Source of the DNA: a virus
Direction: 5' to 3' (one strand)
Virus record (IMG/VR): IMGVR_UViG_3300032220_001630
Location: 1 to 64,000 of that record
DNA length: 64,000 bases
Shown here: positions 13,356-62,762 of the stretch, piece after piece
Position numbering within the stretch: the stretch's first letter is position 1
How the letters are laid out: each line of letters starts with the position of its first letter
Translations under genes and position numbers: made by a program
Notes under the pieces: generated by a model
Databases searched by the model: none
What the model was told of the DNA's origin: nothing
The model's input: the letters and a program-made list of their open reading frames with translations, nothing else

Positions 13356-14944
13356 TGGCTGGATTTACAGATGGAAATAAAACTTTTTTTAGCTCGATAA
13401 TAGACAGCGTTAGGAAAGTTGGTAGCTTCGGGATGGCCTATGGTGATCTAGTAGTAAAAAATTCACAAGCTGTCGGTGTAACAGAAGCACAATTCTTAAA
13501 GAAAGGAGGAATAAAAGATGAGGCTTTTCTTTTTGGATTAAAAAGGTCAGATACAACTACTAAGCAATACATAGCTTATTTTGATAAGGACTTCAAAAAT
13601 AAAAGACACTATGTACAGGGATTTGCACAAAATCCAGAGATAGAGTTTATATTGGATACAGTATGTGATGAAGCAATAGTCTATGACGAGAAAAATTTCT
13701 GGGCATACTTCTCTTTCATGCAGCATGATGATGTGGATGATGACGTTGCAAAAAAAGTTCAAAAAAGATATAAAGAGATTTACAATCTCTTTGGATTTAA
13801 CCAAGACATCTTAGCTTGGCACTTATTTAGAAAATTCTTAATCGAAGGTATAATATCATTCGAAATCATATTTGACAAGAAAGGGAAAAATATCATAGGA
13901 TTTAAAGAAATAGATGCGGCTTCTTTAGTACCTACAGTTGAACAGCAGCCTGATGGATCATACGTAGATATCTGGATACAGTATCCCGATAATCCATCAC
14001 TAACAAGAAAACTTTACGATTCACAATTAATCTATATAAGTTATGCTAAAGGTGGAGGAACTTCTGCAAGAATAAGCTATATTGAAAGATTGATAAGATC
14101 TTTTAACCTCTTGAGGATAATGGAGCACACTAGAATCATCTGGAACGTGATGAATTCTTCTTTCCGTATGGCAATGACAGTTCCAATCGGTACTAAATCC
14201 CCACAAAAAGCAAAGCAAACATTAGGCGAACTTATGTCTATTTATAAAGAGGACATAAGGTTAAATACAGACAGTGGAGAATTAACAGTTGATGGGAGAC
14301 CAAAAATACAATTCTTTAAGAACTATTTAATGCCTTCATCACCAAACGGAACTCCAGATATACAGCCTTTAGCTGGCGGAGGTGATGCTAGTGCATTTTC
14401 AGATACAAAAGCTTTACAATATTTCGCTAATAAACTTAGAATAGATTCAAAAGTCCCTGCAACAAGATTTGGTAGAGACGACTCTGGATCTGAAGGTACC
14501 ATTACATTCTCTGCAGATGGATTAGATCAGGAAGAAATAAGATTTGGTAAATTTATAAACAGACTTAGATCTATTTACCAGGAGATATTAATGAAACCAC
14601 TATGGGTTCAATTCTGCTTAGATTTTCCACAGCTAAAAAATGATTATATAATTAAGTCAGAATTTGGACTAGATTATGTTAAAGAAAATATGTTCCTGGA
14701 AGCTAAGGAAATGGAGGTCATGACTGCAAGAAAGGATCAGGTTATAAAAATTCTAGGTCTTAAAGATTCAGAAGGTAAATCATACTTCAGTTTAAAATTT
14801 GCTCTCGATAGATGGTTAGGAATGACCCCTCAGGATATGTTGGATAACGAAAAAGCTAAGAAAGAAGCAGCAGAGAAAAAGAAGGAAGAGGGCAAAGAGG
14901 AAAAACCTGAAGGTGAAGGTTCTGGAGAAGAATTTAAAATATAA
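13355..14944 (+). CDS. gp20: Portal vertex protein, gp20-like, copy 1
   Basis: The 529-residue protein matches the size of T4 gp20 (524) and its landmarks: IAYFDKDF, EIEFILDTVCDEAIVYDE, ISFEIIFDKKGKNIIGFKEID, an ISYIERLIRSFNLLRIMEHTRIIWNVMNSS core helix, PIGTKSPQKAKQTLGELMSIYKED, and the C-terminal LMKPLWVQFCLDFPQLKND stem/crown segment. The last 30 residues are Lys/Glu-rich. Portal dodecamers sit at one capsid vertex, nucleate the prohead and form the DNA channel and motor docking site. Three bases after its stop begins a second, clearly homologous portal gene. Confidence 0.9.
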   Translation: MAGFTDGNKTFFSSIIDSVRKVGSFGMAYGDLVVKNSQAVGVTEAQFLKKGGIKDEAFLFGLKRSDTTTKQYIAYFDKDFKNKRHYVQGFAQNPEIEFILDTVCDEAIVYDEKNFWAYFSFMQHDDVDDDVAKKVQKRYKEIYNLFGFNQDILAWHLFRKFLIEGIISFEIIFDKKGKNIIGFKEIDAASLVPTVEQQPDGSYVDIWIQYPDNPSLTRKLYDSQLIYISYAKGGGTSARISYIERLIRSFNLLRIMEHTRIIWNVMNSSFRMAMTVPIGTKSPQKAKQTLGELMSIYKEDIRLNTDSGELTVDGRPKIQFFKNYLMPSSPNGTPDIQPLAGGGDASAFSDTKALQYFANKLRIDSKVPATRFGRDDSGSEGTITFSADGLDQEEIRFGKFINRLRSIYQEILMKPLWVQFCLDFPQLKNDYIIKSEFGLDYVKENMFLEAKEMEVMTARKDQVIKILGLKDSEGKSYFSLKFALDRWLGMTPQDMLDNEKAKKEAAEKKKEEGKEEKPEGEGSGEEFKI

Positions 14945-14947
14945 AAA

Positions 14948-16621
14948 ATGGCAGGATTCGTAGACAATTTACAAAAATTAAATCCCAATTTATCAAGAAT
15001 AATAAAGTCAATTAGCGGGCTTGGATCTTTTGGTATGGAGTACAAAGACATGGTCATTGAAGATTCCATGGCAATAGGTATTTCTGAAGCTAACCTAAGA
15101 GAAAGATTTGGCTACGGAGCAGACGACGAGGACTTTATTTACAGCATAGCTGCACAGGATTCTTCAAATAGAAAATATATTGCATATTTTGATAAGGATT
15201 ATCCAGTAAGAAGGGATTTTTTAAGAACGTTTGCACTTAATGCAGAGATAGAATACGTTTTAGATACTTTATGTGACGAAGGAATAGTTTATGACGAGAA
15301 AAATTTCTTTTGTCATCCCGCAACTATGAACATGGATCTTAAAGACGATGTTATGAAATCTTTAAGAGGTAACTTTAGAAAGCTTTATGTCCTTCACAAC
15401 TTCACAAACGGATTAACTGCTTGGCAATACTTTAGACAGCTTTTAGTTGATGGATTTTTAGCATTTGAAATAATTTATTCTAGTGACGGCAAAAATATAG
15501 TAGGATTCAAGGAATTAGATGCTACTAGTCTTACTCCTGCAGTAGAAAGAAAAGCTGACGGATCTAGAGAATCCCTTTGGTGGCAATATTACGGAGATAC
15601 AACTAGACAAAGAAAACTTTTAGATGCTCAAGTAATCTATATCTCCTATGCTAAAGCTAATACTGCAGCTAGAACTTCTTATTGTGAAAGATTAGTTAGA
15701 TCTTATAACCTTCTTAAAATAATGGAGCATTCCAGAATAATATGGAATGTAATGAATTCACAGTACAGAATAAAAATGACTGTACCAATTGGAAGTAAAT
15801 CTCCGCAAAAGGCTAAAGAAACTTTAGGCGAACTTATGTCCGTATACAAAGAGGATATAAAACTTGATACTTCATCAGGAGAACTTGCAATTAACGGAAG
15901 ACCAGATTTACAATTCTATAAAAACTATCTTTTCCCACAAAGCGGCGGTGAATCAACTAAAGTTGAGACTATAAACGCTCAAGGACCAAATCTGAATATT
16001 ATGGATTCGGTAGTTTATTTCTATAATAAATTAAGACAGGATTCTAAAATACCATATAATAGATTTTCTGCAAGATGGGGTTCAGGTAGTGCTGCAGCTT
16101 ATAAAATTCCAGCAGACGGATCAGAAAGAGACGAAGTTAGATTTGCAAAATTTATAACACGTCTAAGATCTATTTTCCAAGAAATAGTAGTAAAGCCTCT
16201 ATGGATACAAATGTGTTTAGATTTTCCACATTTAAAAAATGATTCTGAATTTAGAAGCCAAATTGGGGTTAAATTTGAGAGCGATAATACTTTTGGAGAA
16301 TCAAGAGAGATAGAGCAGCTTTTAAAACATATAGACTTCATAAATTCCTTAGGTGAAATAAAAGAAACAGTTAATGACGAAGAAGTTCAATTCTTCAATC
16401 AAGACTTCCTTATAGAAAGATGGTCAGGATTGCCATATGAAGATATAATGGCAAATAAAAAATATAAGGAAAAAGAAAAAGGTGAAGCTGCACCAGCAGA
16501 AGCTCCTGCTTCTGAAGAGACCCCAGCTGAAGAGACACCTGCTGAAACACCAGCAGAAGAAACACCAGCTGAGACCCCTGCTGAGACATCAGAGGAGGGA
16601 GGAGAAGAAACTACAACCTAA
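14948..16621 (+). CDS. gp20: Portal vertex protein, gp20-like, copy 2
   Basis: The 557-residue protein is a full-length paralogue of the preceding portal. Shared blocks run throughout, including GSFGMEYKDMVIEDSMAIGIS, IAYFDKDYPVRRDFLR, EIEYVLDTLCDEGIVYDEKNF, YCERLVRSYNLLKIMEHSRI, PIGSKSPQKAKETLGELMS and KPLWIQMCLDFPHLKND. No core segment is missing and no frame is broken, so both copies look functional. Differences concentrate in the region after DLQFYKNYLFPQ and in the C-terminus, where this copy has a Pro/Ala/Glu/Thr-rich tail of about 45 residues. The two could form a mixed ring, serve different vertices, or one could have a new function. Confidence 0.88.
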   Translation: MAGFVDNLQKLNPNLSRIIKSISGLGSFGMEYKDMVIEDSMAIGISEANLRERFGYGADDEDFIYSIAAQDSSNRKYIAYFDKDYPVRRDFLRTFALNAEIEYVLDTLCDEGIVYDEKNFFCHPATMNMDLKDDVMKSLRGNFRKLYVLHNFTNGLTAWQYFRQLLVDGFLAFEIIYSSDGKNIVGFKELDATSLTPAVERKADGSRESLWWQYYGDTTRQRKLLDAQVIYISYAKANTAARTSYCERLVRSYNLLKIMEHSRIIWNVMNSQYRIKMTVPIGSKSPQKAKETLGELMSVYKEDIKLDTSSGELAINGRPDLQFYKNYLFPQSGGESTKVETINAQGPNLNIMDSVVYFYNKLRQDSKIPYNRFSARWGSGSAAAYKIPADGSERDEVRFAKFITRLRSIFQEIVVKPLWIQMCLDFPHLKNDSEFRSQIGVKFESDNTFGESREIEQLLKHIDFINSLGEIKETVNDEEVQFFNQDFLIERWSGLPYEDIMANKKYKEKEKGEAAPAEAPASEETPAEETPAETPAEETPAETPAETSEEGGEETTT

Positions 16622-28708: not shown

Positions 28709-29464
28709 TTGAAAAATGTTTTAAAATTTACCGATTGGATCTTAGAAAACGAAGAAAGAAATGATTTCTATAAAAAGGAATTAAACCCATCTTTCTGGAA
28801 GGATTCTAACTTTGATCCACACATAAGAGAAAAGCTTTTAAAAATAGCTAAAGACTTTTATAGTGCTTTAAAATTAACAGCACCTATAAAAGATATCCAA
28901 TTAACAGGTTCGTTGGCCAATTATAATTGGACAGATAAATCCGACCTAGATGTACACGTCCTTATAGATTTTGAGGACATAGATGATAATAAAGATCTAG
29001 TAAAAAAGGCTTTAGACGGACTAAGATTCATTTGGAATTTAAGACACAAGATAGTTTTAAGAGATCACGACGTAGAGCTTTATATACAAGATGTAAAGGA
29101 ACCTCACGTTGCGTCGGGATTATTTTCATTGATGAATAATGAATGGATCAGAGTACCTAAGTACAATCCTCCCGAAATAGACTACAAAGACGTAGATAAA
29201 AAATTCCAAGGTTTAGTTTCTGAAATCCAAGAGATGGAGAATCTTATGGGTACAGCAGATTTTTCTTCTGTTTCTAAAGAAGAATTATACTCCTATGCAG
29301 AAAAACTCAAAAAGAAGATCCTTGAAATGAGAAGAGAAGGATTAGCAAGAGATGGTGAATTTTCCGTTGAGAATCTAGTCTTTAAAAAATTAAGGAATGA
29401 AGGATATATAGAAAAGATAATAGAGATAATCTCTAAAGCATATACAAATATCTACAATGAATAA
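28709..29464 (+). CDS. Nucleotidyltransferase-like protein (Pol beta fold)
   Basis: The product starts at TTG, as no ATG occurs in frame for over 120 codons, and has 251 residues. Residues about 65-90 contain IQLTGSLANYNWTDKSDLDVHV, the GS...DxD signature of the Pol beta nucleotidyltransferase fold. The third acid is probably in the later DHDVELYIQD strand. The C-terminal 80 residues are helical. The first residues (MKNVLKFTDWILENEE) resemble the short motif shared by candidate internal head proteins, with a possible protease site after ILE or ENE. If so it could be packaged and act on RNA or nucleotides after injection. Its stop overlaps the next gene by eight bases. Confidence 0.7.
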   Translation: MKNVLKFTDWILENEERNDFYKKELNPSFWKDSNFDPHIREKLLKIAKDFYSALKLTAPIKDIQLTGSLANYNWTDKSDLDVHVLIDFEDIDDNKDLVKKALDGLRFIWNLRHKIVLRDHDVELYIQDVKEPHVASGLFSLMNNEWIRVPKYNPPEIDYKDVDKKFQGLVSEIQEMENLMGTADFSSVSKEELYSYAEKLKKKILEMRREGLARDGEFSVENLVFKKLRNEGYIEKIIEIISKAYTNIYNE

Positions 29465-32060
29465 GAACATGAACGACTTGTACAAAGGTATAAACCCAAT
29501 TTACGAAAGTATGAAATCCTCAATCATGGAGGATAAAGAAAAAGGAACAGACAAGAAAGCAAAAGCCCTTGATACTGTTTCTCTTGTATCTACAGCCATG
29601 AATACTTTCTTTTCCATCCTTTTAAATTCAAAGATGGAAAATGCTAAAACGGTAAGAGGATTCCAAGAGATTAAAAACAAAATATTAGGAACTAACAATT
29701 TTGGTGCGTTCAGACAATATTTAATTTCTGTAGTAGATTCTTTAGCTGCTATGGATCCTTCACAAAAAGATGCTTACCAAAAAAATATTCAGTTCATTAC
29801 TGGTTTATTAGCAAATGTAGAGCCTCTTTTATCTGATCCAAAAATATTTGATAGCTTAAAGAAAGATACAGTTTCTAAACTAGTAAGCAACTTCGAAAAC
29901 GATCTAAAGGAAAGAGAATCTCAAATGAGAAAAACTAATCCAAAATTATTTGGTGAAGTTGTTAAGCAAGGTTTAGTTGTTAAGGAAGCTAAAAGAACAG
30001 GTGAAGAAGACAACGTAGAAGATGCAGAGTTTAGAGGTAAAGCTTTTAATAAATCCAAAGAATCATTAGATGCTTCTAGTGCTTTTGTAGGTATGATCGA
30101 TAGAGATTCATACGTTGCAGTTCTTAAAGATAACGAGGACGTAAAAAGATATAAAGAAATTGCTCAGAATCTTTACAAAAGAGCTCAAGATCTACAAATG
30201 CTAGACAGAAAGGGATTACTAAATATAGTAACACCTTCAGGAGAATATAAAAGAAAAGATTACGTAAGACAGCAAGATTCATTATTAAATGACATCATAA
30301 GACAAAAGAAAGAATACGAAAGAATTAAGGAAGGTATTCTAAAACAAGGAGGATTAACACCTCCCCCACCAGTTATTCCAGTTTGTCCTCCTGGAAAAAT
30401 ATACGATCCATCTAAAGGAATTTGTGTAAGCTCAGGAGAAACACAAGCAACAGGAGGAACCTCCGGAGGCGAAGGAGACAACAAACCAAAACCAAAAACT
30501 TCAGATTGCACATTCCCTATTTCTCTAAATACTAAATGTGCACAAGTAGGAGATATACAAAATAAATTGATGGAAGTTATTCCTTCAGTTAAAGAGTATC
30601 TTCCAAAGAAAGGTGGAGCGGATAAGGTTTACGGAAAAGGAACTGCAACTGTATCTAATATAGTTTGGGGTTACCTTTCAGGAAATACTGGACAATCTAT
30701 AACATCTCCTCTATCTAAGGAAATGTATGACGCTATCATGGCTTTAACGCCTAATGATATCGACACAACAACTGCAATGATGGCAGGAGCAGCTATTAAA
30801 GATAGCAAAAACTGGGAAATGTCAATCAGCGACAAAATACAGGAAAGAGAAGAGATTAAAGGATCTCCTATCTTATCTTTCGAAGACTTTTATTCAGTAA
30901 TAGAAGAATCCTATAACTTCGCAAAAATTGACGAGGATTCAGTATTTGATAGATTAAAAAAAGTAGCAGAGCCAGTTACAGATGTTAACAAAAAAGTAGA
31001 ACCTGCTACAACTCCATCAGGTAAGAAATTAATAGATTCTTGTATTAAAGATTCTATTGCACAAGGTAAGGTTCTTCCTTGCGTTGGTGCTACAGGAGGT
31101 ACAGGAGGTACAGGTGGTACAGGTGGTACTGGAGGTACTGGAGGTACTGGAGGTACTGGAGGTACTGGAGGTACAGGTGGTACAGGTGACGTTAAATGGA
31201 AAGGTTTAAAGCCAGTTAAAGACGGAGCTTATACAGTATACTATGATGAAAGTTGGTCAGAATGGTGGAGTGATACAGGTAAAGGAGTTATAGTAGCTGG
31301 ATTAATCGTAGGTGCTATAGTTGCTACCGCAGGAGCAGCAAGTATTGCAGTTCCAGTAGGAGGTACATTAATAGGAGCATCCTCATTAGGAGCATCTGGA
31401 TTAGCAGGAGCTGGTGCAGCTGCAGCAGGATTAGTTACAACTGGAGCAGGTGGAATCGTATTAGCTACAGGAGCTATAGGAGGTTCTGCAATAGCAAAAT
31501 GGGCAGGTGATGATAGAAAACCTGCTACAATCTTAGTATTTAACGGATATATTGAAAGCGTGGCTGTTAAAGCAATGGCTAGAGGATTATACAATAGCTT
31601 AACTGGTACAGTTTCATCACAAGATCTTTTAGCTATCTTCTCTACATTAATTCTTTGTAGAGGAACTTATACAGAAGGTCCAGATGGTAAAGCAATTTCA
31701 GTATGGGAAAAAGTTAAGAAGGATTACTCTGCATTCGGAGGTGAAGATCTATCTTATGATATCAAGGATATCACTAGTGGAGGTGTTGGTGGATTCTTTA
31801 AAGACGTAGTTACAGATATGGACGAAATTCCAGGATTCCCTACTAGCTTTAAAACTAAAGATCCAACAAACGGAGGTCCTACAACATTCGAATCAGCAAA
31901 AGATGCTTGCGACGAAGCAGTAGGTAAACTTAATGGCAACGTAACTAAAATGGCAGAAAATCTGCAAAATATTACAGAAGAAGATTTAGAGGTTCTTTCA
32001 GAAAGTATGGGTGAACTCACAGAAGGGGTAGCTAAAGAAGCAGGGGAATCTGAAGAGTAA
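29457..32060 (+). CDS. Large candidate head-internal or ejected protein with Gly-Thr repeat linker and membrane segment
   Basis: This 867-residue protein has a helical N-terminal half (1-290) and a Pro-rich turn (LTPPPPVIPVCPPGK). A Gly-rich linker and a domain around residues 345-440 resembling a peptidoglycan-binding helical fold come next (CTFPISLNTKCAQVGDIQNK). At 469-486 there is an internal ILSFEDFYSVIEES motif like the N-terminal motifs of neighbours. After a (TGG)n linker (545-577) comes a hydrophobic Gly/Ala stretch (about 605-685) able to span a membrane, then a C-terminal soluble domain. The layout suits a protein packaged in the head and delivered across the envelope. Neither function nor location is proven. 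Confidence 0.6.
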   Translation: MNKNMNDLYKGINPIYESMKSSIMEDKEKGTDKKAKALDTVSLVSTAMNTFFSILLNSKMENAKTVRGFQEIKNKILGTNNFGAFRQYLISVVDSLAAMDPSQKDAYQKNIQFITGLLANVEPLLSDPKIFDSLKKDTVSKLVSNFENDLKERESQMRKTNPKLFGEVVKQGLVVKEAKRTGEEDNVEDAEFRGKAFNKSKESLDASSAFVGMIDRDSYVAVLKDNEDVKRYKEIAQNLYKRAQDLQMLDRKGLLNIVTPSGEYKRKDYVRQQDSLLNDIIRQKKEYERIKEGILKQGGLTPPPPVIPVCPPGKIYDPSKGICVSSGETQATGGTSGGEGDNKPKPKTSDCTFPISLNTKCAQVGDIQNKLMEVIPSVKEYLPKKGGADKVYGKGTATVSNIVWGYLSGNTGQSITSPLSKEMYDAIMALTPNDIDTTTAMMAGAAIKDSKNWEMSISDKIQEREEIKGSPILSFEDFYSVIEESYNFAKIDEDSVFDRLKKVAEPVTDVNKKVEPATTPSGKKLIDSCIKDSIAQGKVLPCVGATGGTGGTGGTGGTGGTGGTGGTGGTGGTGGTGDVKWKGLKPVKDGAYTVYYDESWSEWWSDTGKGVIVAGLIVGAIVATAGAASIAVPVGGTLIGASSLGASGLAGAGAAAAGLVTTGAGGIVLATGAIGGSAIAKWAGDDRKPATILVFNGYIESVAVKAMARGLYNSLTGTVSSQDLLAIFSTLILCRGTYTEGPDGKAISVWEKVKKDYSAFGGEDLSYDIKDITSGGVGGFFKDVVTDMDEIPGFPTSFKTKDPTNGGPTTFESAKDACDEAVGKLNGNVTKMAENLQNITEEDLEVLSESMGELTEGVAKEAGESEE
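31090..31189 (+). repeat. Tandem 9-bp repeat GGTACWGGW
   Basis: About ten in-frame copies of GGTACTGGA / GGTACAGGT code for a (Gly-Thr-Gly)n linker. The near-identity of copies indicates a slippage-prone, length-variable tract. Confidence 0.85.
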
Positions 32061-32062
32061 TA

Positions 32063-32070
32063 GATATATA
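32063..32070 (+). promoter_or_regulatory. Late promoter box GATATATA
   Basis: The box ends 12 bases before the prohead protease-scaffold ATG and begins two bases after the previous stop. Confidence 0.65.
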
Positions 32071-32082: not shown

Positions 32083-34143
32083 ATGGAAAAAAACTTAGAC
32101 TACGTACTTATACTAGAAAAATCATCTAATAATCTTTCGTCTGTAAAAAAAGACGGAGATTATTTCTTAGAAGGTGTAGCTGCTGTATTCGGGGTAGAAA
32201 ATTCAAATCATAGAATATATGAGGAGAAGGAATATCTTCCACATTTAGACTATCTTAAGAAGAAGATCGATCAAAATAGATTAGTAGGTGAATTAGATCA
32301 CCCTAAAGAATTTGATGTGTCTTTAAAAAATATTTCTCATATCATCACAGATTTAGATTACGATGATGATAAAAGAGTAGTAAGAATTAAAGTTAAGCTT
32401 CTAGATACTCCAGCAGGTAAAATCGCAAAGAGTTTAGTTGATGCTGGTATACCTATTTCAATTTCTTCTAGAGCAGCAGGTAATGTAAAAGACAATAAAA
32501 AAGTAGAGATCAAGAAGATTTTTACTTATGATCTTGTTGCAGATCCTGGATTCGAAAATGCTCAATTAGAAAGAGTTCAAGAGAGTCTATACGAGAGTTT
32601 AGGATACGGTTCTTTTAATGATACACAAAAAAGTTCAGTAATTTCCACACTTACCAATATAAATGAAAGTTTTGGTCTAAGAAAAAATTCCAACACGCAG
32701 ATATATAGAATTAAAGATACGGAGAAAATCTCTAGACTCTTGAAAGAAAACACAACAAATAATTCAAAGAATATGGACAATAACTTTGTCACTGCAGAAG
32801 AACTAAACGAATATTCTCTCATTCTTAAAAAAGAGATGGATTCTTTAAAGAATGAAATTAAATCCGTTTCTAAAGGTTCTAGTAATACATCTACTTCTAA
32901 TGGTGATCAATCTTTAGAAGAAAGAGTACAAAGACTTGAAAAATACTCTGAGTATCTTGCTGAGAATCTAGAATCTTCTATTAAGTATGGTGATTATTTA
33001 GCAGAAAATTTAGAAGGGTCTATATCTTACAATAAATATTTAGCTGAAAATCTTGACAAAGCTATTTCATATGCTAAATACTTAGCAGAGCACGTAGACG
33101 GAAATATTTCTTATTCTGAATACATCGCAGAGAATTTAGATAACAATATCGCTTATAGCAAATACATAGCTGAAAACTTAGACAAGAACATTTCTTACTC
33201 TGAGTACTTAGCAGAAAATTTAGATAAAAACATTTCGTATTCAGAATATCTTGCAGAGAACTTAGACAAGAACATTTCTTACTCTGAGTACCTAGCAGAA
33301 AATCTTGACAAAAACATTTCATATTCAGAATATCTTGCAGAGAACTTAGACAGAAACATTTCTTATTCTGACTATCTTGCAGAAAATTTAGATAAGAGCA
33401 TTTCTTATTCAGATTACCTAGGAGAAAAATTAAACGGTAACATTAACTACTCTGACTATTTAGCAGAGAAAGTTAAATCTGGTATCGAATACACTCAATA
33501 CGTTGCAGAGTCAATGAATAAGGGTGGATCTCCTAAAGCTGATTTAGGAAAACAAGTTAATGAATCAGTTAACACTGGCAAGAGAACTTCAGGTTTCTCA
33601 GGAGACTACACTTCTCTTTCAGGTAAGGTTGATCAATTAATAGAATCTCTTAATAAGAACAAGACTGAAGAAATTATTAGTGAAAATAAATATTCTTTCT
33701 TAAAGCTTGTCGATGACAATACCAAGAAAGGATTTCTTTCTTTGAACGAGGCCGAAAAACAAAAGGTCGCTAAAGCTCTTAACGAGCAGAACTATAATTC
33801 GGGTACGGATGTAGTTCAAATAATGGGATCTGCTTTAACTGAGCAGGTTAACTCAGGAGAAAAATTCTTAGACATGATGCCAGAAGATTTGGTACCGGTT
33901 TGGGAGTCTTTAAATGAATCACAAAGAGCATCAATTATTGCTCAGAGTAAATTCTACAAATTAGACACACCTTATCAGATCAATCACTTCTGGAGAACAC
34001 GTCCTAATTTTTCAGCTCCAGCTGCTAACCTAGAACAATTAAGCGAATCTCAGCAAGTTCAAAACAACACTGCTAAAATGGGGATCAGCAATAGCTATCT
34101 CCAAAACATCGCAGCTGAATTGGACAAAAGATTTAAAAAATAA
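32083..34143 (+). CDS. gp21: Prohead protease (gp21-like) fused to a repeat-rich scaffold region
   Basis: Residues 1-170 match T4 gp21-type maturation proteases: an EGVAAVFGVENSNHRIY start, GELDHP with the likely catalytic His73, the serine-rich ISISSRAAG (126-132) and YDLVADPGF (149-156). T4 gp21 ends near residue 212. Here the chain continues to 686 with a coiled coil, then 14 units of a 14-residue repeat of YSEYLAENLDKNIS type (288-483), then a helical C-terminus reminiscent of a scaffold core (gp22). Each repeat has an LAE or IAE tripeptide, fitting the (L/I)xE cleavage preference of this protease family. The gene lies directly before the major capsid gene, as 21-22-23 do in T4. Confidence 0.85.
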   Translation: MEKNLDYVLILEKSSNNLSSVKKDGDYFLEGVAAVFGVENSNHRIYEEKEYLPHLDYLKKKIDQNRLVGELDHPKEFDVSLKNISHIITDLDYDDDKRVVRIKVKLLDTPAGKIAKSLVDAGIPISISSRAAGNVKDNKKVEIKKIFTYDLVADPGFENAQLERVQESLYESLGYGSFNDTQKSSVISTLTNINESFGLRKNSNTQIYRIKDTEKISRLLKENTTNNSKNMDNNFVTAEELNEYSLILKKEMDSLKNEIKSVSKGSSNTSTSNGDQSLEERVQRLEKYSEYLAENLESSIKYGDYLAENLEGSISYNKYLAENLDKAISYAKYLAEHVDGNISYSEYIAENLDNNIAYSKYIAENLDKNISYSEYLAENLDKNISYSEYLAENLDKNISYSEYLAENLDKNISYSEYLAENLDRNISYSDYLAENLDKSISYSDYLGEKLNGNINYSDYLAEKVKSGIEYTQYVAESMNKGGSPKADLGKQVNESVNTGKRTSGFSGDYTSLSGKVDQLIESLNKNKTEEIISENKYSFLKLVDDNTKKGFLSLNEAEKQKVAKALNEQNYNSGTDVVQIMGSALTEQVNSGEKFLDMMPEDLVPVWESLNESQRASIIAQSKFYKLDTPYQINHFWRTRPNFSAPAANLEQLSESQQVQNNTAKMGISNSYLQNIAAELDKRFKK
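32944..33531 (+). repeat. 14 tandem 42-bp coding repeats (YSEYLAENLDKNIS)
   Basis: Units of exactly 14 codons run without interruption. Units 7 to 9 are identical in protein, while the first and last units diverge. Synonymous differences between units show that the protein sequence is being kept. Confidence 0.95.
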
Positions 34144-34155: not shown

Positions 34156-35943
34156 ATGCAACTCTTAAATCAAAACGAGATCTACGAAACATGGTCTCCT
34201 ATCATTGAGAGCAAGACCGGCATGACTGATCGTTCAAAAGTAGAATGGCTTTCTAAATATTGCCACTTCCACTCACTTAACGAATCTGCTGGAGCTTATA
34301 ACTCTCTTTCAGTAATCCCAGGTATGGGTAACATCTTACCTCCAGGTAACTACTCAGGTGGTGCTGCTGGTGCTGGTAACGCAGGTTTTTACTACAACAA
34401 CACTTACAACGCTGGTACTCCATATGTTGGTTCTGGTGATAAGTTCCCTTCATTACTTCCATTGGCTATTCAGGTAGCTGCTAAAACCGTTGGTTTTGAC
34501 ATCGTTCCTGTTATTCCTATGGCTGGTCCTACAGGGGTACTTTCTTACCTTGACTATGTATATGCAGGTGGTACTTTAACTGGTACTTCAACAGATTCAG
34601 GTACAGGTTACATCGCTAATACACCTGATATGATCAAGGTTCCTATTGCGACTGCATCTCCAGTATACGGTACTTTAACTGTAGGTTCTAACTACGCTAT
34701 TTACGTAACTGGTGCAGCTCCTACTTCAGGTCTTGCTTCTGGTAACGCTGGTGCTATTGGTACTTACGTTGGTAACTCACGTATTGACGGTTTCCCAATC
34801 TTCAGAATTATCGGTATCACTACTGGTTCTTCAGTTGCTGCTGCAATCACTGCTAACTCTGAGATTAAAGCTGTTACTTTAACTTCTGCAGCTGGTGCAA
34901 TCCCTACATGGGCATCACTTGGTTCTTTAGTTGCTTACTCTGGTGGTGCTGCTGTATTAGTTAAAACGTTAGAAGATCACATCCAAGGTTTCTCTGGTGC
35001 TGGTCCAACTAACAACAACAACTGGCAAGGTCCTTACGTAGACGGTACTCAAAACTACGATCCAATGTTAAGAGGTACAGCCGAGTCAACTTACTTCAAG
35101 TCTCTTGGTTTATCTACTTTCACTAAGTTCGTAGAAGCTGGTACTTTCCAAGTTGCTGCTTCTGTTACTACTGAGCAAATCCAAGACCTTAACAAGCAAT
35201 TCGGTATCGACGTAGTTTCTATGATCGAGAACGCTCTTGTTAACGAGGTTTCTCAAGCTATTAACAAGCACATCTTATCAAGAGGTTTTGCTCTTGGTTG
35301 GTCAAACCACTCACAATTCTTCGTAACTGAAAGTACAAACCTTAACCTTAACTTAGTAATTGGCGGTCTTGCTGCAAGTTATGCAGTTCCTTCTTACGTA
35401 GGTAAGACTGGTTCTCCTGTAACTGGAGCACCAGGTTCAGTTGCTGGTCCTGCTTCAGGTACTTTCGAGAACTTATCAACAGTTCAAAGAAGACTTTACA
35501 GCCGTATCTTAGCTGCTGCTAACGTAGTTGCTAACAGAGGTCGTAGAGGTCCTGCTAACTTCATCGTTACTAACTCACAAATTGCTTCTGCTCTACAAGA
35601 CATTAGCCAATTTACATTCGCTCCATTTACTAACACTCTTACTCAAAACAACGGTACTTTATACCCAGTAGGTTCACTTGCAGGTATGACAGTATATGTT
35701 GACCAAAACATGTCATTCGGTGACACTAGAGTATTAGTTGGTAGAAAAGGTGCTGATGATGAGCCAGGTATGAAGTTCATGCCTTACATGATGGCTGAAT
35801 CAATTCAGACTATCTCTGAAGGTACTATGTCTCCTAAGATCGCGGTTAAGTCTCGTTACTCTTTAGTTGAGGCTGGTCACTTACCAGAGACTATGTATTT
35901 CACGTTCCACGTTAATACTGGTTCTGCTACTTCTATCATCTAA
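34156..35943 (+). CDS. gp23: Major capsid protein, gp23-like
   Basis: The 595-residue protein (T4 gp23 has 521) opens with IYETWSPIIESKTGMTDRSKVEWLSKYCHFHSLNE, the gp23 pattern, and a likely maturation site after SLNE (Glu43). It has the GPTGVLSYLDYVYAGG strand typical of the fold. The end contains FMPYMMAESIQTISEGTMSPKIAVKSRYSL, a hallmark of gp23 C-termini. The region 175-300 is Gly/Thr/Ala-rich and probably forms an inserted surface domain. Codon use is shifted toward a narrow set (GGT, GCT, AAC, ACT) compared with neighbours, as expected for the most highly expressed gene. No GATATATA box precedes it, so it is probably read through from the protease gene. Confidence 0.95.
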   Translation: MQLLNQNEIYETWSPIIESKTGMTDRSKVEWLSKYCHFHSLNESAGAYNSLSVIPGMGNILPPGNYSGGAAGAGNAGFYYNNTYNAGTPYVGSGDKFPSLLPLAIQVAAKTVGFDIVPVIPMAGPTGVLSYLDYVYAGGTLTGTSTDSGTGYIANTPDMIKVPIATASPVYGTLTVGSNYAIYVTGAAPTSGLASGNAGAIGTYVGNSRIDGFPIFRIIGITTGSSVAAAITANSEIKAVTLTSAAGAIPTWASLGSLVAYSGGAAVLVKTLEDHIQGFSGAGPTNNNNWQGPYVDGTQNYDPMLRGTAESTYFKSLGLSTFTKFVEAGTFQVAASVTTEQIQDLNKQFGIDVVSMIENALVNEVSQAINKHILSRGFALGWSNHSQFFVTESTNLNLNLVIGGLAASYAVPSYVGKTGSPVTGAPGSVAGPASGTFENLSTVQRRLYSRILAAANVVANRGRRGPANFIVTNSQIASALQDISQFTFAPFTNTLTQNNGTLYPVGSLAGMTVYVDQNMSFGDTRVLVGRKGADDEPGMKFMPYMMAESIQTISEGTMSPKIAVKSRYSLVEAGHLPETMYFTFHVNTGSATSII

Positions 35944-37036: not shown

Positions 37037-37909
37037 ATGGAGATTAAAAGATTAAAGGATTTTGAATTAAACGAGGGAATTATTTCTTCAATATTTGGCG
37101 GGATTGGTGATTTTTTTAAAAGTAAAAAATCAAAAATTGAATCAATTCTAAAAAGTATTAAGAAAGCAAAAGAAGAGGACGTTAGCCATATAATTAATGT
37201 GGAAAAGGAAATCTGGAACATGCCTAAGGATAATTCTCCTGAATACAGATTTCAAATTACTAATCTGAATAGACAGGTTAGAACATACAGCTCCTTAAAA
37301 AGACAAGAGATGGATTCCTTAATAAAGGAAGCAAATAAGATAATTGATAACGACCCAAAATTACAGGCTTTTTTCAGTGCAGGTCTTGCTAAAATAGAAG
37401 CAGATGTAACTGAGAAAATGATCAAAGGATTAAAGCCTTATAAGGAGAAAACTTATCTAGATCAATTAAATGCAGAGTTTGATTCATTAGTTAGAGATGC
37501 TACAAAAAAATCTGAATTTTATAGTGAATACTCAGAAAGACCTTCATATGCTGGAGATTTTGAATCAATCCGTGAAAATACACCTCCAGAGGTATTCGCC
37601 TTTATAGATTCAACTAATGGAAAAAATATTGAATACATGGAAGGACTAGGTAACGAAGATCTTTACAAACTATACAATAAAATTAAAGACTTCTCTTTTG
37701 ACCTAGACGTTAGATACAAAAAAACAATAGATTCATTAAGAAAGGATCGAAAAAGATTTGCTAAGGAAGATCAGGATTACTTAACTCCTCCTATAGAAAA
37801 AGAGGAGATAAGAATTAAAAACGAAGCATTTTTTATTATGGAAAGGCTAAAAACTAAAATTTCCCTAATAGAAAAAGAAATTAAATCTAGAAAATATGGG
37901 AATAGTTAA
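37037..37909 (+). CDS. Candidate head-internal protein with N-terminal targeting-like motif
   Basis: The 290-residue product begins MEIKRLKDFELNEGIISS. The short basic-hydrophobic leader with an LxE site resembles the capsid-targeting sequences of T4 internal proteins, which are cleaved by gp21. Immediately after the site comes IFGGIGDFFKSKKSKIE, a Gly-rich amphipathic helix like that of the gene upstream. The remaining 250 residues are charged and helical. The start is one base after the previous stop and the end overlaps the next start. The family is not otherwise recognised. Confidence 0.55.
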   Translation: MEIKRLKDFELNEGIISSIFGGIGDFFKSKKSKIESILKSIKKAKEEDVSHIINVEKEIWNMPKDNSPEYRFQITNLNRQVRTYSSLKRQEMDSLIKEANKIIDNDPKLQAFFSAGLAKIEADVTEKMIKGLKPYKEKTYLDQLNAEFDSLVRDATKKSEFYSEYSERPSYAGDFESIRENTPPEVFAFIDSTNGKNIEYMEGLGNEDLYKLYNKIKDFSFDLDVRYKKTIDSLRKDRKRFAKEDQDYLTPPIEKEEIRIKNEAFFIMERLKTKISLIEKEIKSRKYGNS

Positions 37910-38177
37910 ACTAAAGGATTTTCTATCTGAACAATCCACACAGGAAAAGGTAAAGGATCTACAGGCTAAAACCAATATAGAGAAAGAAATAATGGAGATT
38001 GATAAAAGAATCTCCGACATAGATCTTGCTCTGGCTAACTTAGCTAAAAGAGAGAAAGACGGGAGTCTTAAAAAAAGTGAATCCCTGTCTCAGCAAGCCA
38101 TAGAGCTACAAAAAAAAGTAGCAGAATTCCAGAAGAAATCACAGGCTGTTAAAAAGATGGAAAGCCTAGAAAAATAA
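37896..38177 (+). CDS. Small coiled-coil protein with targeting-like N-terminus
   Basis: The 93-residue product begins MGIVKLKDFLSEQSTQEK, with the VKLKDFxxE motif shared by the preceding protein, followed by an unbroken helical, Lys/Glu-rich coiled coil (SLSQQAIELQKKVAEFQKKSQ). It overlaps the preceding gene by 14 bases. The small size, charge and leader are those of a T4-type internal protein. Actual function unknown. Confidence 0.55.
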   Translation: MGIVKLKDFLSEQSTQEKVKDLQAKTNIEKEIMEIDKRISDIDLALANLAKREKDGSLKKSESLSQQAIELQKKVAEFQKKSQAVKKMESLEK

Positions 38178-41086: not shown

Positions 41087-42502
41087 ATGTGTGGAATTTT
41101 AGTAGCTATTAACCCGACAAAGGAAAGGATAGAATCTATATCTCATAGAGGAATAGAACATTCTATTGTAAACGATCAAAATCTATATCTAGTTCATCAC
41201 AGGCTTCCAATACAAACAGTGGATGGTGATAGCTGGTCACAGCCTATACAAATTGGCGAAAATAGGTGGCTGTTATTTAATGGCGAGATTTTCAATTATA
41301 GTGGCGGATTCGATTCGGATACAGCATACCTTCAAAATCTATTTAGTAGTTTTAATTTTAGTGGTATTGACATGCTACAAGCTATATACGAACCCCATAT
41401 AGTTTCATGGGATGGGTTTTGGGCAATAGTTATGGTAGACACCAAAGAGAAAGAAATATATGCTTTTACTGATCCTTTGGGCAAAAAGGTTTTATACAAG
41501 AACGATCTTGGCGAAATCTGCTCAGAAATAAAAGGATTATTTGAAAAGGACAATGAACCCGCACCAGATCCATCATTCTTCAGTGGTGTTATAAAGTGGG
41601 GATATTTAACCACCGATCAGACACCTTATGAAGGCATAAAAAAACTACAACCTAATAGATTTTATAAATGGAATCTCTATAACCCATCAAAAATGGAAGT
41701 ATCTGATCCATATTATAATTTTTACTCTTTTGAGGCAGGATTAGAAACATATGAAGATAGAATGGATTGGTTATGGAATAAACTTGAAAATTCAGTAGAA
41801 TCAAGATTGATCTCTAAAAACTACCCGACATCTCTTCTGTTATCAGGGGGTTTAGATTCTGCCATTATTGCAGGTCTTCTTCTTAAACTCGGAGCAGATG
41901 TTCAGTTTTATTCTATATCCAACGGTGAAGATGAGCAATACGTAAAAGCATGTGAGGAATATTGGGGTGTTAAATCTATAAGATTAGATTACGATGTTGA
42001 CATAGAAAGCGAAGAGGGTAAGAATAAAACACTAGAAATATATCAGAAATGGAATGAATCACCCATAGATATGGGAAGTGTTCTACCTCAATATCATTTA
42101 TTTGATGCAATAAAAAAAGGATCTAAAACCAGGATAGTTATTTCAGGAGATGGAGCTGATGAATTATTTGGAGGATATAGGAGAATTAATGAATACGATT
42201 CACAAGATTCAGACATCTTTCACGAATTAACTTCATACCATCTACCAAGATTGGACAAGTTATCAATGGCACACACCTTGGAGCTTAGAAGTCCTTTTTT
42301 AAATCACGACATAGTAAGATTTGCTTTAACACTTCCTTTTGAAGAGAGAAAGAATAAAAAAATATTGAAGGATACTTTTAAAGGATTAGTTCCAGATTCA
42401 GTAATTGAAAGAAAAAAATTGCCTCTTAAAAATCAGATGATTGTAGAGGATCAAATTTCTTACAGAAAAAAGATAAAGGATTTATATCTTAAATCCATTT
42501 GA
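41087..42502 (+). CDS. asnB: Asparagine synthetase B-like, glutamine-hydrolysing
   Basis: The 471-residue enzyme begins MCGIL, giving Cys2 as the class II glutamine amidotransferase nucleophile. RGIEH, VHHRL and LLFNGEIFN follow in the glutaminase domain. The synthetase domain has the SGGLDSA pyrophosphatase loop and ISGDGADELFGGYRR. Bacterial AsnB is about 550 residues, so the C-terminal part is shorter, but all visible motifs are intact. It would make asparagine, or amidate another carboxylate, at the expense of glutamine and ATP. Its 3' end overlaps by 21 bases the end of a convergent minus-strand ATP-grasp gene. Confidence 0.9.
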   Translation: MCGILVAINPTKERIESISHRGIEHSIVNDQNLYLVHHRLPIQTVDGDSWSQPIQIGENRWLLFNGEIFNYSGGFDSDTAYLQNLFSSFNFSGIDMLQAIYEPHIVSWDGFWAIVMVDTKEKEIYAFTDPLGKKVLYKNDLGEICSEIKGLFEKDNEPAPDPSFFSGVIKWGYLTTDQTPYEGIKKLQPNRFYKWNLYNPSKMEVSDPYYNFYSFEAGLETYEDRMDWLWNKLENSVESRLISKNYPTSLLLSGGLDSAIIAGLLLKLGADVQFYSISNGEDEQYVKACEEYWGVKSIRLDYDVDIESEEGKNKTLEIYQKWNESPIDMGSVLPQYHLFDAIKKGSKTRIVISGDGADELFGGYRRINEYDSQDSDIFHELTSYHLPRLDKLSMAHTLELRSPFLNHDIVRFALTLPFEERKNKKILKDTFKGLVPDSVIERKKLPLKNQMIVEDQISYRKKIKDLYLKSI

Positions 42503-47652: not shown

Positions 47653-48276
47653 ATGTGCCCCCAATTCTTAGTTATCGCTTACTATACTGAAAACACTTCC
47701 TACCAAGACTTAGCTGAAAAATTAAAAAATTCGCTTCAAAGGTTTGGTTTACCCCATTACATAGAACCTATCAAAGATCAAGGCTCATGGGAAAAGAATA
47801 CACACTACAAAGCTTATTTTATTAAGAAATGTCTAAATGACAGAAATCTAGATCTTCTCTACGTAGATGTAGATGCAGTGTTTAAAGCGTATCCTAGCTT
47901 AATCGATGGCTTAGATTGTGACATTGCATACAGAACCCAAGATTTTAGATGGAGAAAAGATGAGGCCTTATCTGGTACTATCTTTCTAAAGAACAATGAC
48001 AAGGTAAAGAGGTTAGTTGATAGGTGGATAGAGATTAACGAAAAGACTCCTGCTGAAAGAATGAAACCTGAGACCTGGGAGCAAAAAAATATGCAAACCG
48101 CACATAGAGAATTCTCCGATGTGGTTTATTATAATCTACCACCAGAATATACTTTTATATTTGATCACTCAAGAACAATGTATCCTAAGGCTTCTCCTGT
48201 AATAGAGCATTACCAAGAATCTAGAAATGTACATCGAAATAATTTACAATCTCGAGGTATAATTAGAAAAAGATAG
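47653..48276 (+). CDS. Nucleotide-diphospho-sugar transferase, GT-A type
   Basis: The 207-residue protein has a GT-A outline: N-terminal strand FLVIAYYTENTSYQDLAEKL, a conserved WEKNTHYKAYFIKKCL helix, then LDLLYVDVDAVF with the metal- and sugar-nucleotide-binding DxD. A short GTIFLKNNDKVKRLVDRWIE acceptor-side helix follows. It opens the glycan locus. Two further genes a little downstream are paralogues with the same layout. The donor and acceptor cannot be told from sequence. Confidence 0.7.
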   Translation: MCPQFLVIAYYTENTSYQDLAEKLKNSLQRFGLPHYIEPIKDQGSWEKNTHYKAYFIKKCLNDRNLDLLYVDVDAVFKAYPSLIDGLDCDIAYRTQDFRWRKDEALSGTIFLKNNDKVKRLVDRWIEINEKTPAERMKPETWEQKNMQTAHREFSDVVYYNLPPEYTFIFDHSRTMYPKASPVIEHYQESRNVHRNNLQSRGIIRKR

Positions 48277-48277
48277 A

Positions 48278-49009
48278 ATGCAATTAACCTATGCAGTAGT
48301 CAGCTCTAATTCCAACCCTGAGTACTTGGATTTTTGGCCATATGTGGCAAAAATGTGGCAGAGGATAGGATTAGAGCCTGTCCTTTTTTATATAGATAAA
48401 GAAGCTCCTAAGGAAAATGCGGCAGAATATGGTAGAGTTATCTTTCTAGAATCTATACCCGAATGGGACATAGCCCAACAGGCACAGTGTATTAGATTTT
48501 GGGCTGCAAAGGTTTTAGACAATCCTTTTATTATCTCAGATATTGATATGCTTCCTATTTCAAAGGATTATTACATAAATGAAGCATTGAAAATAGGACA
48601 CAGAGGTATAATATCCTATAGTTCTGATATTATCAAATATAGATGGTATAGGACTAATCCTCAGTATCCTATGTGTTATCTTGCCGGAGATCCCTTATCA
48701 TTCACACAGCTTCTGGATATGAATGATACTGATCATAAAAGTTTTCTCAGAAGATTAATGAGAATGAATATCAGATTTGGTACTGATCAAAAATTCTTCT
48801 ATAACCAATCCCTTCGAAAGCCTGATATTAAAATTAAGCATTTGGAGAGAGGATGGATAGAAGAAAAATATGCGGTTAAAAGACTTGATAAAGCTATCTG
48901 GCCAAAATCTGATTATAATCCAGAGGAATATATAGACTGTCATTTACCTAGACCCTTATCATCAAATGCAGTCCTTTGTAAAAAATTATTTAGTAAGCTA
49001 GATTTATGA
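48278..49009 (+). CDS. Glycosyltransferase-like protein with DxD motif
   Basis: The 243-residue product starts TYAVVSSNSNPEYLDFWPYVAKMW and has QCIRFWAAKVLDNPFIISDIDMLP, where DID is the DxD-like metal site after a helix that places the substrate. A late PLSSNAVLCKKLFSKL closes the fold. The protein encoded at 59.1 kb follows the same plan (FKNFWPIVVKSWNKYF, then MIEDIDTIP). It overlaps the next gene by ATGA. Likely a sugar transferase of unknown specificity. Confidence 0.65.
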   Translation: MQLTYAVVSSNSNPEYLDFWPYVAKMWQRIGLEPVLFYIDKEAPKENAAEYGRVIFLESIPEWDIAQQAQCIRFWAAKVLDNPFIISDIDMLPISKDYYINEALKIGHRGIISYSSDIIKYRWYRTNPQYPMCYLAGDPLSFTQLLDMNDTDHKSFLRRLMRMNIRFGTDQKFFYNQSLRKPDIKIKHLERGWIEEKYAVKRLDKAIWPKSDYNPEEYIDCHLPRPLSSNAVLCKKLFSKLDL

Positions 49010-49647
49010 CAAATCTCCCTATATTTATATCCTATCATACTGGGGATTCTTATTATTCCTCCTGTGCAGAAAATCTTGTATCTAATATAAGATCTTTAGG
49101 CGGTGAGATAATAATGGAGAAAGTTACAGATACTGGATATTACTGGAAGAATACTTTAAAAAAGCCTGGGTTCATACTTTCTAAAATGGATGAACTAAAA
49201 AGAGATCTAATTTGGATAGATGCAGATACCAATATTTTTGGATATACAGATTGTATGAAAAAATGGGAATCCGATATACTATTTGCATCCCATACCGGAG
49301 ACATCCATGGTATAAAGGCATCTCCTATGGGTATAAAGTACAGTGAAAAAACACTGGGATTCTTTAAAAAATTTTCAGATTTGTGTAATCATAAAATAGA
49401 ATCCAATGAATTGGATTTAGATCACGACGTTTTAAAGTATGAATTACTTCCTGATTACAAGGAGAAGATCAGTTTAGAAATTTTAGGTTGTGAAGGAGTA
49501 CCATCGGATTACACAGACGGGAAATATATAAGAAATGGAATTTCCAGAGGAATTAATAAAGGAAGAGAGGTTCATTCTGTCACTTTAAAAAATTCTACTA
49601 GAGATCTAAAATTTAGAATGCTATCTTTAAATGACTTCACAATATGA
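49006..49647 (+). CDS. Nucleotide-diphospho-sugar transferase, paralogue of first glycan gene
   Basis: The 213-residue product parallels the first gene of the locus: PIFISYHTGDSYYSSCAENL, YYWKNTLKKPGFILSKMD, then RDLIWIDADTNIF with a DxD site, then a DLDHDVLKYELLPDYKEK segment. It overlaps both neighbours by four bases. Sugar-transfer function is inferred from the DxD layout. Confidence 0.65.
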   Translation: MTNLPIFISYHTGDSYYSSCAENLVSNIRSLGGEIIMEKVTDTGYYWKNTLKKPGFILSKMDELKRDLIWIDADTNIFGYTDCMKKWESDILFASHTGDIHGIKASPMGIKYSEKTLGFFKKFSDLCNHKIESNELDLDHDVLKYELLPDYKEKISLEILGCEGVPSDYTDGKYIRNGISRGINKGREVHSVTLKNSTRDLKFRMLSLNDFTI

Positions 49648-50459
49648 GCACATACAGAGTAACTAAAAGAGGTGACCTTAGAAGAAGAGTAATTAATAAT
49701 TCACCACCTTTACAAAATTCAAACAAAAACGAAATAGGAAAAGAAGAAAAAATGAACGAAGATTTATTTTATCCGATTAAAAATTCTAGGGAAAGAAAAA
49801 TAATAGAAAGAAAGGAGAGATTGACAGGTAAAGATGATATTGTAATATCTTTTATATCTGATCCCGTAGGATCAAATTTTTACAGCGAAAAATTTAGAAC
49901 CTTATTAGATAAGGTGGATCAATTAGGACTTGATTATATTTTCTGTAAATACGAAAGTGATAGGAATTATTACCAGAACTGCTGTTACAAGCCATATTTT
50001 ATAAAGACACTTATCAAAGAAACTGGAAAAAACGTTATATGGGTCGATGGAGATACAATATTAAAGAATGGGTTTTCTTCATTAAACAGAAAGGATAAGG
50101 AATTTGATATGGGATTAGTATCATATACAGGATCGATGGATTCTTTTGTAGCATCCCCTGTTTATTTCAAAAACACAGAGGTAAGCAATACTATTATAGA
50201 TCATTGGGAAAACCATTGTACTTCTAGAATAGAAAATGGAGAATGTGAGTTAGATCATGATGCTTTAAAGCATTCTATACTTCCACATTATAGAGATAGA
50301 GTTAGAATCAATCTCTGTGGGATCGAGCTCCATAAGGGAGAAAACGTAGAAAATGTAAATTCAGATGTTCCGTATAAAAGAGATATACTTATAAAAATGA
50401 GAAGCGTAAATATGAATAGAACATTTCCAGGAAATATAACAAACTATAATATAGTATGA
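49644..50459 (+). CDS. Nucleotide-diphospho-sugar transferase, third paralogue
   Basis: The 271-residue product has a basic 65-residue N-terminal addition and then the same layout as the previous gene: DIVISFISDPVGSNFYSEKF, YYQNCCYKPYFIKTLIKE, KNVIWVDGDTILKNG with DxD, and ECELDHDALKHSILPHYRDR, close to the DLDHDVLKYELLPDYKEK of its neighbour. The pair is probably a recent tandem duplication that has diverged. Substrate unknown. Confidence 0.65.
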   Translation: MSTYRVTKRGDLRRRVINNSPPLQNSNKNEIGKEEKMNEDLFYPIKNSRERKIIERKERLTGKDDIVISFISDPVGSNFYSEKFRTLLDKVDQLGLDYIFCKYESDRNYYQNCCYKPYFIKTLIKETGKNVIWVDGDTILKNGFSSLNRKDKEFDMGLVSYTGSMDSFVASPVYFKNTEVSNTIIDHWENHCTSRIENGECELDHDALKHSILPHYRDRVRINLCGIELHKGENVENVNSDVPYKRDILIKMRSVNMNRTFPGNITNYNIV

Positions 50460-51301
50460 ATAAATTAAAAACTAACTGGGCGCCTTTTCCTCACGAGTAT
50501 TCGTCTTGTTCAAATTTTAAACCTGAGGACTTCGAATGGTCAAGAACTGAGGGAATAGCTAATATAGTTATCGATAATCAGATAATGACTTACAATCCTC
50601 CTTTAAACGAGAAAAATTTTGGATGGTTCTGTGAGTCCAGTGAAATACTTCCATCTTTAAAATCCTATATTAGAAGTAATATGCCGGCTCTAAAGAGGAA
50701 GTTTAGAAATATATTTACCTCTGATCGTGAAATAATCTCTTGGGATCCAAGCTTTTTTATATTTAACCCTCCAGGATCTAATTTACCATGGACACCTAAG
50801 AATAATTATAGGATTCCTGAAAAAACTAAAAAATGCTCAATGATCTGCAGTCCAAAAAGTATGACATCCGGACATAAATTGAGATTAGAAGTAGCAGAAA
50901 AATATAGTGCAAATTTTGATCTGTTTGGCGGAGCATCAGGAAGCTCTCGAATAGGATCCGGATCTGGTCCTAATGGAGATTGGTGGAGATCTAAAGAAGA
51001 AGCATTAGCTCCATATATGTTTTCTTTAGTTTTTGAGAATGCTAAAATAGATAAGTATTATACTGAAAAAATAACAGATTGCTTTGCATTGGGGGTAATT
51101 CCTATATACTGGGGAACCGATAAGATCTCTGAAGATTTCAATATGGGAGGTATTATTAAATGGGAAGATAATTTTGATTTTTCTATGCTTACGTTGGATC
51201 TTTACAACTCTAAAATGGAATATGTAAAAGATAACATGGAAAGAGTCAGAAATATGTTATCCGCAGATTCATTAATTTTCAATAAGATAAAAACTTTATG
51301 A
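50456..51301 (+). CDS. Fucosyltransferase-like GT10 family glycosyltransferase
   Basis: The 281-residue protein contains the GT10 (alpha-1,3/1,4-fucosyltransferase) signature late in the chain: YMFSLVFENAKIDKYYTEKI, then ALGVIPIYWGTDKISEDF (family: FENS....YvTEKl....aG.vPIYwG). An SKEEALAPY helix precedes it, and the CSMICSPKSMTSGH and LFGGASGSS segments fit the donor-binding half. These enzymes use GDP-L-fucose. Genes for making GDP-fucose from GDP-mannose lie at the end of this same locus, which strengthens the call. No membrane anchor is visible, so it should be cytoplasmic. Confidence 0.8.
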   Translation: MNKLKTNWAPFPHEYSSCSNFKPEDFEWSRTEGIANIVIDNQIMTYNPPLNEKNFGWFCESSEILPSLKSYIRSNMPALKRKFRNIFTSDREIISWDPSFFIFNPPGSNLPWTPKNNYRIPEKTKKCSMICSPKSMTSGHKLRLEVAEKYSANFDLFGGASGSSRIGSGSGPNGDWWRSKEEALAPYMFSLVFENAKIDKYYTEKITDCFALGVIPIYWGTDKISEDFNMGGIIKWEDNFDFSMLTLDLYNSKMEYVKDNMERVRNMLSADSLIFNKIKTL

Positions 51302-53931: not shown

Positions 53932-53932
53932 A

Positions 53933-55437: not shown

Positions 55438-55438
55438 C

Positions 55439-57056: not shown

Positions 57057-57062
57057 AATATT

Positions 57063-59934: not shown

Positions 59935-59936
59935 AA

Positions 59937-60575: not shown

Positions 60576-60579
60576 ATCT

Positions 60580-62705: not shown

Positions 62706-62715
62706 TTCACGTTAT

Positions 62716-62757: not shown

Positions 62758-62762
62758 TCGTT

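Follow-up and report, generated by a model that had tools for sequence, protein, structure and literature searches.

A gp21-type prohead protease fused to its scaffold, with a predicted nested scaffold gene, in a group of T4-type phages

Tailed phages and herpesviruses all face a stoichiometry problem: the prohead protease has to enter the core in small numbers, while the scaffold is made in hundreds of copies. In T4, the protease, the scaffold and the major capsid protein are encoded by separate genes (21, 22 and 23). Within the T4 core, gp21 acts as a protease on gp22 and gp23, which it cleaves after (L/I)xE, and gp22 is broken down into many fragments (PMC9026906). The T4 late promoter TATAAATA has a copy 35 bases ahead of gene 22, which begins within the last part of gene 21, and in 6/6 other T4-like phages the motif was found 34-37 nt before gene 22. 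In lambda, the protease gpC is of the S49 type and the scaffold Nu3 is also made from an internal in-frame start; this C/Nu3 overlap was reportedly described by Shaw and Murialdo in 1980. In herpesviruses, a protease-scaffold precursor gene (UL26) contains a nested, separately transcribed in-frame scaffold gene (UL26.5). For lambda as for Mu, protease and scaffold are encoded in one gene (PMC8508860).

Fusions that resemble the one described here are on record from three sources. The cultured Tenacibaculum phage PTm1 has the same fusion and the same C-terminal domain, and the gene is named ‘prohead core scaffolding protein and protease’ in PTm1/pT24, but it carries a KELSEGIEKWI-type helical repeat and no recognizable internal start. 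The available portions of the paper on bS21-encoding Bacteroidetes phages give the same gene name and neighborhood (PMC9723584), and a nested scaffold gene is mentioned neither in those portions nor in the available description of PTm1/pT24. The Prevotella Lak phages (Lak-A1 and Lak-C1) have a 595-residue ORF with the same protease and the same type of C-terminal domain, but in these an acidic linker replaces the repeats and there is no internal start with the A-rich motif. As the PTm1 and Lak fusions show no start comparable to the one reported below, the fusion can apparently do without it.

The fused open reading frame

The window analyzed is a stretch of 64,000 nucleotides (positions 1 to 64,000 of the IMG/VR virus record IMGVR_UViG_3300032220_001630), to which all coordinates refer unless a contig is named. 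An open and intact ORF of 686 aa at 32083-34143 on the plus strand encodes a gp21-type prohead protease followed by a scaffold, as assigned by Pfam, PHROG and relatives. The protease domain comprises residues ~1-171 (32083-32595, plus strand) according to Pfam, PHROGs, conservation and the AlphaFold model. The ORF matched Peptidase_S77 (PF03420, 5.7e-10, 39.5 bits, cut-off 27), Peptidase_S80 (PF20034, 1.8e-9, 37.6 bits, cut-off 23.4) and the head maturation protease family PHROG 207 (5.5e-39), and T4 gp21 (5jbl) was the best PDB match of the AlphaFold protease domain (E 3.8e-9). T4 His85 and Ser140 align with His73 (codon 32299-32301, plus strand) and Ser128 (codon 32464-32466, plus strand, in SSRAAG), which occupy the catalytic places and were invariant in 67/67 homologues; the assignment of the N-terminal part as a T4 gp21-type prohead protease (S77/S80) is secure. 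An earlier note, made from the letters of this DNA, had described a gp21-type protease that runs without a stop into 14 repeats of 14 residues and a helical tail, and ORF, profile and structure checks all agree with that description. Its proposal that protease and scaffold are one chain is supported in that a single ORF encodes both, but it is probably incomplete, as a conserved internal late-promoter-like element and start codon predict a separate scaffold too.

The scaffold half lies between the protease and a gp23-type major capsid protein, which is the next gene after the fused ORF (34156-35943, plus strand; Pfam, PHROG), just as gene 22 lies between genes 21 and 23. The locus is also like T4 in its [LI]xE-rich helical scaffold and in a putative late promoter just before the predicted scaffold start, and it differs in that a single ORF encloses that promoter and start and in its tandem 14-residue repeats. 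Lambda gpC/Nu3 is alike in having protease and then scaffold in a single ORF, but gpC is unrelated to the gp21-type protease identified here by profile match; the internal start of the present gene is predicted on strong comparative evidence, and an internal late-promoter-like element is present in addition. Herpesvirus UL26 has a nested in-frame scaffold gene like the one predicted here and a distantly related protease fold (weak Foldseek matches of the protease model to herpesvirus proteases, E ~0.1), but has another scaffold, another cleavage specificity and a eukaryotic promoter. Directly 5' of the fused ORF, positions 29457-32060 hold an 867-aa ORF with a long Gly-Gly-Thr run and weak family matches only.

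The tail of the fused protein was predicted to be helical and ends in a conserved helical C-terminal domain (33541-34140, plus strand; MPexxxpxWExL...LxTxYQIxxFWxTR) that is common to the PTm1 and Lak fusions. A structure search with the model of this domain returned, as good matches, other fused proteases and one uncharacterized viral protein, with no independent scaffold among them. Profile-profile comparison (hhalign) of T4 gp22 with the scaffold half detected no homology (probability 0.8%, E 0.066), and the visual impression that the C-terminal sequence is like that of T4 gp22 was therefore dropped as evidence. A separate gp22 gene was not found in four of these genomes with PHROG 237, a profile that is insensitive here. 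Because sequence homology to T4 gp22 is not detectable, the name ‘gene 22’ is used on grounds of position, signals and composition; in T4 gp22, [LI]xE shows a comparable excess (16 vs. 5.7 in shuffled sequence). Codons 554-563 (33742-33771), within the C-terminal domain, form a second stretch of low synonymous change, and no start or promoter was found that explains it.

A scan of viral contigs yielded 492 relatives of the fused ORF, and in essentially all of the best 80 of these 492 (38-92% identity) a single frame encoded the protease, the repeats and the C-terminal domain. Among the huge uncultured phages in GenBank, one of 735 kb and others also had the fused gene. T4, gp22-matched T4-like phages and cyanophages, PA5oct and PAU encode the protease in a gene of its own. 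Since PTm1 and Lak have the fusion without these repeats, the fusion has a wider distribution than the repeats and probably predates them, and the 14-residue repeats are one of several rod fillings. Near relatives were binned with Psychroflexus and with an uncultured Bacteroidetes bacterium, and Bacteroidetes are the predicted hosts of a published clade that has the same gene set (PMC9723584); both are suggestive only of a Bacteroidetes host for this phage group. A bS21 gene was found in one related genome (G001) and in LR756501 and not in the 103-kb record that contains the window, which is a fragment, and the linkage was therefore not used as evidence.

Internal start codon and late-promoter-like elements

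Divergent dereplicated homologues (27, then 67) were aligned, and this identified an internal in-frame ATG at 32773-32775 (plus strand, Met231). Met231 was the sole conserved internal Met, occupying the column in 66/67 homologues, and the 67th has a linker Met that is shifted by the alignment. The linker around it varies in length and sequence, and because nothing in the protein accounts for an invariant Met there, its explanation should lie in the DNA. The nested scaffold ORF that would begin at this codon has a predicted length of 456 aa (32773-34143, plus strand).

The context of ATG231 resembles that of a gene start in these AT-rich phages and differs from that of other in-frame ATGs. Positions -20 to -1 contained 57.5% A and 6.9% G, vs. 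38% and 20% at 495 other in-frame ATGs. The triplet AAA at -16 to -14 was 96-100% conserved, and the fold energy at the codon was weaker (-3.3 vs. -6.4). An A-rich initiation element, AAATAA at -16 to -11 in the window (32757-32762, plus strand), was found as AAATAA or AAAATA upstream of ATG231 in 85%, vs. 2.1% of other ATGs. Using a gene-start matrix trained on 466 other gene starts, ATG231 scored first of ~29 ATGs in 36/67 genes and among the top three in 56. Such an A-rich, gene-start-like context is expected, because Bacteroidota hosts do not rely on Shine-Dalgarno sequences (PMC6847099). Synonymous change was suppressed at codons 221, 225 and 226, which lie in the A-rich element, and more strongly at codons 200-212, ~70 bases upstream of ATG231. 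That the context is a by-product of Asn/Lys-rich coding was rejected, as synonymous sites are constrained and the A-rich motif of one clade encodes different amino acids. On these comparisons, the scaffold half is probably also made alone from ATG231.

The motif GATATATA occurs 20 nt 5' of the fused ORF (32063-32070, plus strand) and again inside it (32700-32707, plus strand), 73 nt before ATG231. GATWWATA was present no more than 80 nt upstream of the fused ORF in 47/65 homologues, and GATWWATR was present no more than 130 nt before the internal ATG in 63/67, with 15 occurrences elsewhere in the remaining 127,866 nt of these genes. Among 14 widely divergent representatives, 12 carried the internal motif and two lacked it, compared with a mean of 1.9 and a maximum of 5 in 300 synonymous-codon randomizations; as the homologues share ancestry, p-values overstate independence and are not to be taken literally. 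Codon 206 ends in G whether it encodes K, Q, R or M, and Ile207 is ATA in 57/64, with ATA making up ~19% of Ile codons. The position of the motif shifts between homologues (-34, -46, -49 and -67 to -91) and the amino acids change too, while the motif is retained. A by-product of a conserved Ile-Tyr was accordingly rejected as its source, on the codon randomization and on this movement.

Exact copies of GATATATA in the window (both strands, n = 15) lie at 7033, 9287, 9332, 13328, 21093, 28682, 29403, 32063, 32700, 36015, 38178 and 45808 on the plus strand and at 27959, 43975 and 45788 on the minus strand, and 13 of them have a correctly oriented gene start 12-54 nt downstream. The other two are the copy at 9287, which shares a leader with another copy 45 nt downstream of it, and the internal site, whose spacing to ATG231 exceeds the range of the other window genes. 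In 220 kb of related loci, 52% of GATATATA copies preceded an ORF start, vs. 0-31% for permuted motifs, and some relatives use GATAAATA instead. This phage group apparently uses the motif, a variant of the T4 one, as its late promoter. A gp55-type late sigma factor is encoded at 11921-12277 (plus strand; PHROG 234 2.4e-16, PF04542 1.8e-6) and is its likely reader. The positions of the motif also suggest corrected gene starts, for example 36040 and not 35995, and 21119 and not 21086. A second phage sigma factor, of the sigma-70 type with regions 2 and 4, is encoded at 4542-5165.

The 14-residue repeats and candidate cleavage sites

Residues 288-483 (32944-33531, plus strand) consist of 14 tandem 14-residue repeats, Y-x-x-Y-[LIV]-A-E-N-L-D-x-x-I-x. 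The earlier observation of LAE or IAE in nearly every repeat was confirmed for 12/14 units (LAE in 10, IAE in 2), the remaining two having LGE and, in the last unit, VAE. [LI]xE was counted 13 times in the repeats, vs. 4.1 ± 1.7 in 2000 shuffles (maximum 9). The array is old, since codons differ among most of its units and the first units can be matched position by position across other phages. Conservation of the repeat unit was scored with positions 5-8 masked during unit detection. The P1 Glu (Glu7) was the top conserved position (832/857 units) and P3 was L, I or V in 853/857; a detection artefact was rejected as the cause of the Glu conservation, which persists with the masking. Within the repeat, the strongest constraint falls on [LIV]xE. 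When repeat number was compared between related phages, as the earlier note had suggested, it proved fairly constant, mostly 11-15, but the Lak and PTm1 fusions lack these repeats altogether.

Outside the repeats, two candidate self-cleavage sites were recognized. LYE↓S at E171 (32593-32595, plus strand) lies at the end of the protease domain and is [YN]E↓S in most homologues, and INE↓SFG at E195 (32665-32667, plus strand) lies between protease and scaffold and is conserved at a level of at least 90% within the variable linker. In gp23, cleavage is predicted in HSLNE↓SAG at E43 (34282-34284, plus strand).

Two readings of the repeats were weighed, of which the first comes close to an even prospect. 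It holds that the repeats are purely structural, forming a helical rod that would set the dimensions of the core and self-associate via Tyr and aliphatic faces, with Glu7 conserved for helix packing and with cuts only at the flanking [LIV]xE↓S sites. AlphaFold placed a single helix over residues 273-479, with low confidence in the repeats, and Tyr1, Tyr4, Leu5, Leu9 and Ile13 are conserved along with Glu7; the fairly constant repeat number and the different helical repeat that PTm1 holds at the same place also point to a rod. So do similar units found in small proteins that lack a protease, among them a collagen-like protein of LR756501, products of further small ORFs from that contig and the product of a small ORF behind a tail-fiber-like ORF on a Fulvivirgaceae contig; the repeat is also present in a 313-residue protein of another genome (G002). 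However, a helical wheel puts Glu7 opposite the hydrophobic face, where packing alone would not predict strict conservation, and its conservation exceeds that of core positions 9 and 13.

The second reading, which we judge plausible but somewhat short of an even chance, is the self-digestion ladder proposed in the earlier note: the repeats would be gp21-type sites, and cuts at intervals of about 14 residues would let the scaffold leave as small peptides. It would account for the P1 Glu being the most conserved repeat position even when detection is blind to positions 5-8, and for the aliphatic P3. T4 gp22, which is comparably rich in [LI]xE and includes LAE↓N, IAE↓K and IAE↓Q, is a scaffold that is cut into many fragments, and a P1' Asn stands at the predicted gp23 site of some relatives (HSINE↓NAY). 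P1' in the repeats of the window is N in 10, K in 2 and H in 1, though, whereas it is Ser at the flanking candidate sites and in gp23, and the other [LI]xE sites of the window are mostly E↓S. The related SPN3US protease favors Ser at P1' (PMC10052503). Furthermore, one relative, LR756500, has kept the 14-residue periodicity but has [LIV]xE in 6/10 detected units, having lost it in four, the Lak and PTm1 fusions do without these repeats, and the repeat, including its Glu, occurs in small proteins that have no protease. The ladder is compatible with a nested scaffold gene; the claim that protease and scaffold are made as a single chain only is not.

One to three YxxYLAE units were also seen in unrelated small phage proteins (L103:1761-2384, L104:1557-2498, L105:659-1577 and L195:4938-5165), which include a collagen-like protein, a 313-aa protein, a membrane-anchored protein and one behind a tail-fiber-like ORF. 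The YxxYLAE repeat might serve generally as a module for helical association, or else as a tag for docking to the core.

Predicted products and neighboring genes

Read most simply, the locus arose by loss of the gene 21 stop, with the promoter and start of gene 22 retained. We regard it as likely that the T4-type genes 21 and 22 are now one ORF in which gene 22 has kept a late promoter, GATATATA, and ATG231, which would give two products. The conserved internal signals, and the late promoter that T4 has at the same place, suggest that gene 22 persists as a nested gene. In 40/41 relatives, no separate promoter motif for gp23 was found within 200 nt, and the internal promoter therefore probably feeds the scaffold and gp23 together. 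That result would also suit an internal promoter that is real but serves gp23 and later genes only, with Met231 unused as a start, but this is improbable, as it leaves the invariant ATG231, its A-rich context and the neighboring suppressed synonymous change unexplained.

With gene 22 nested in the fused ORF, the promoter at 32063 would lead to the 686-residue protease-scaffold chain, and the promoter at 32700 would give an mRNA from inside the ORF for the 456-residue scaffold-only protein and would supply gp23 as well. The scaffold would build the core via its long helical rod (14 repeats) and the conserved C-terminal domain. As the few fused and many free scaffold chains would have the scaffold domain in common, co-assembly would bring the protease into the core. 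At maturation, the protease would free itself by cutting at E171 and E195, both conserved [LIV]xE↓S sites, and would cut gp23 at HSLNE↓S. A fuller version, which is tentative and on the doubtful side, is a herpesvirus UL26/UL26.5-like gene in T4-type Bacteroidota phages, in which two late promoters would set the protease:scaffold ratio and a ladder of 14 steps would time scaffold removal.

This T4-type lineage thus appears to solve the stoichiometry problem in the way of lambda and the herpesviruses, by a fusion with the scaffold kept as a nested gene. The nested gene is the main new point; a protease-scaffold fusion with a nested scaffold is already known elsewhere, and for a gp21-type fusion no paper on a nested scaffold was found among the openly available papers searched, which does not prove absence. 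A protein from Met231 and a transcript from near 32710 are predicted for these very common uncultured large phages, and searches or gene callers that know just the 686-residue ORF would miss the main scaffold protein.

Several other genes of the window deserve mention. The starts of two genes downstream of the fused ORF, KRLKDFELNE↓G (37037-37073) and KLKDFLSE↓Q (37896-37935), are like the capsid-targeting propeptides of T4, and the products of these genes may be internal head proteins. An asparagine-synthase-like gene (41087-42502; PF00733 3e-38) lies downstream of the head module, and 47653-63689 is a run of more than 20 ORFs on one strand, similar in size (~190-310 aa) and with no function assigned. 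Two adjacent genes (13355-14944 and 14948-16621) both match the T4 gp20 portal (PF07230, 5.5e-60 and 1.1e-58); such a tandem portal pair is unusual, since one gene normally supplies all twelve subunits of the portal.
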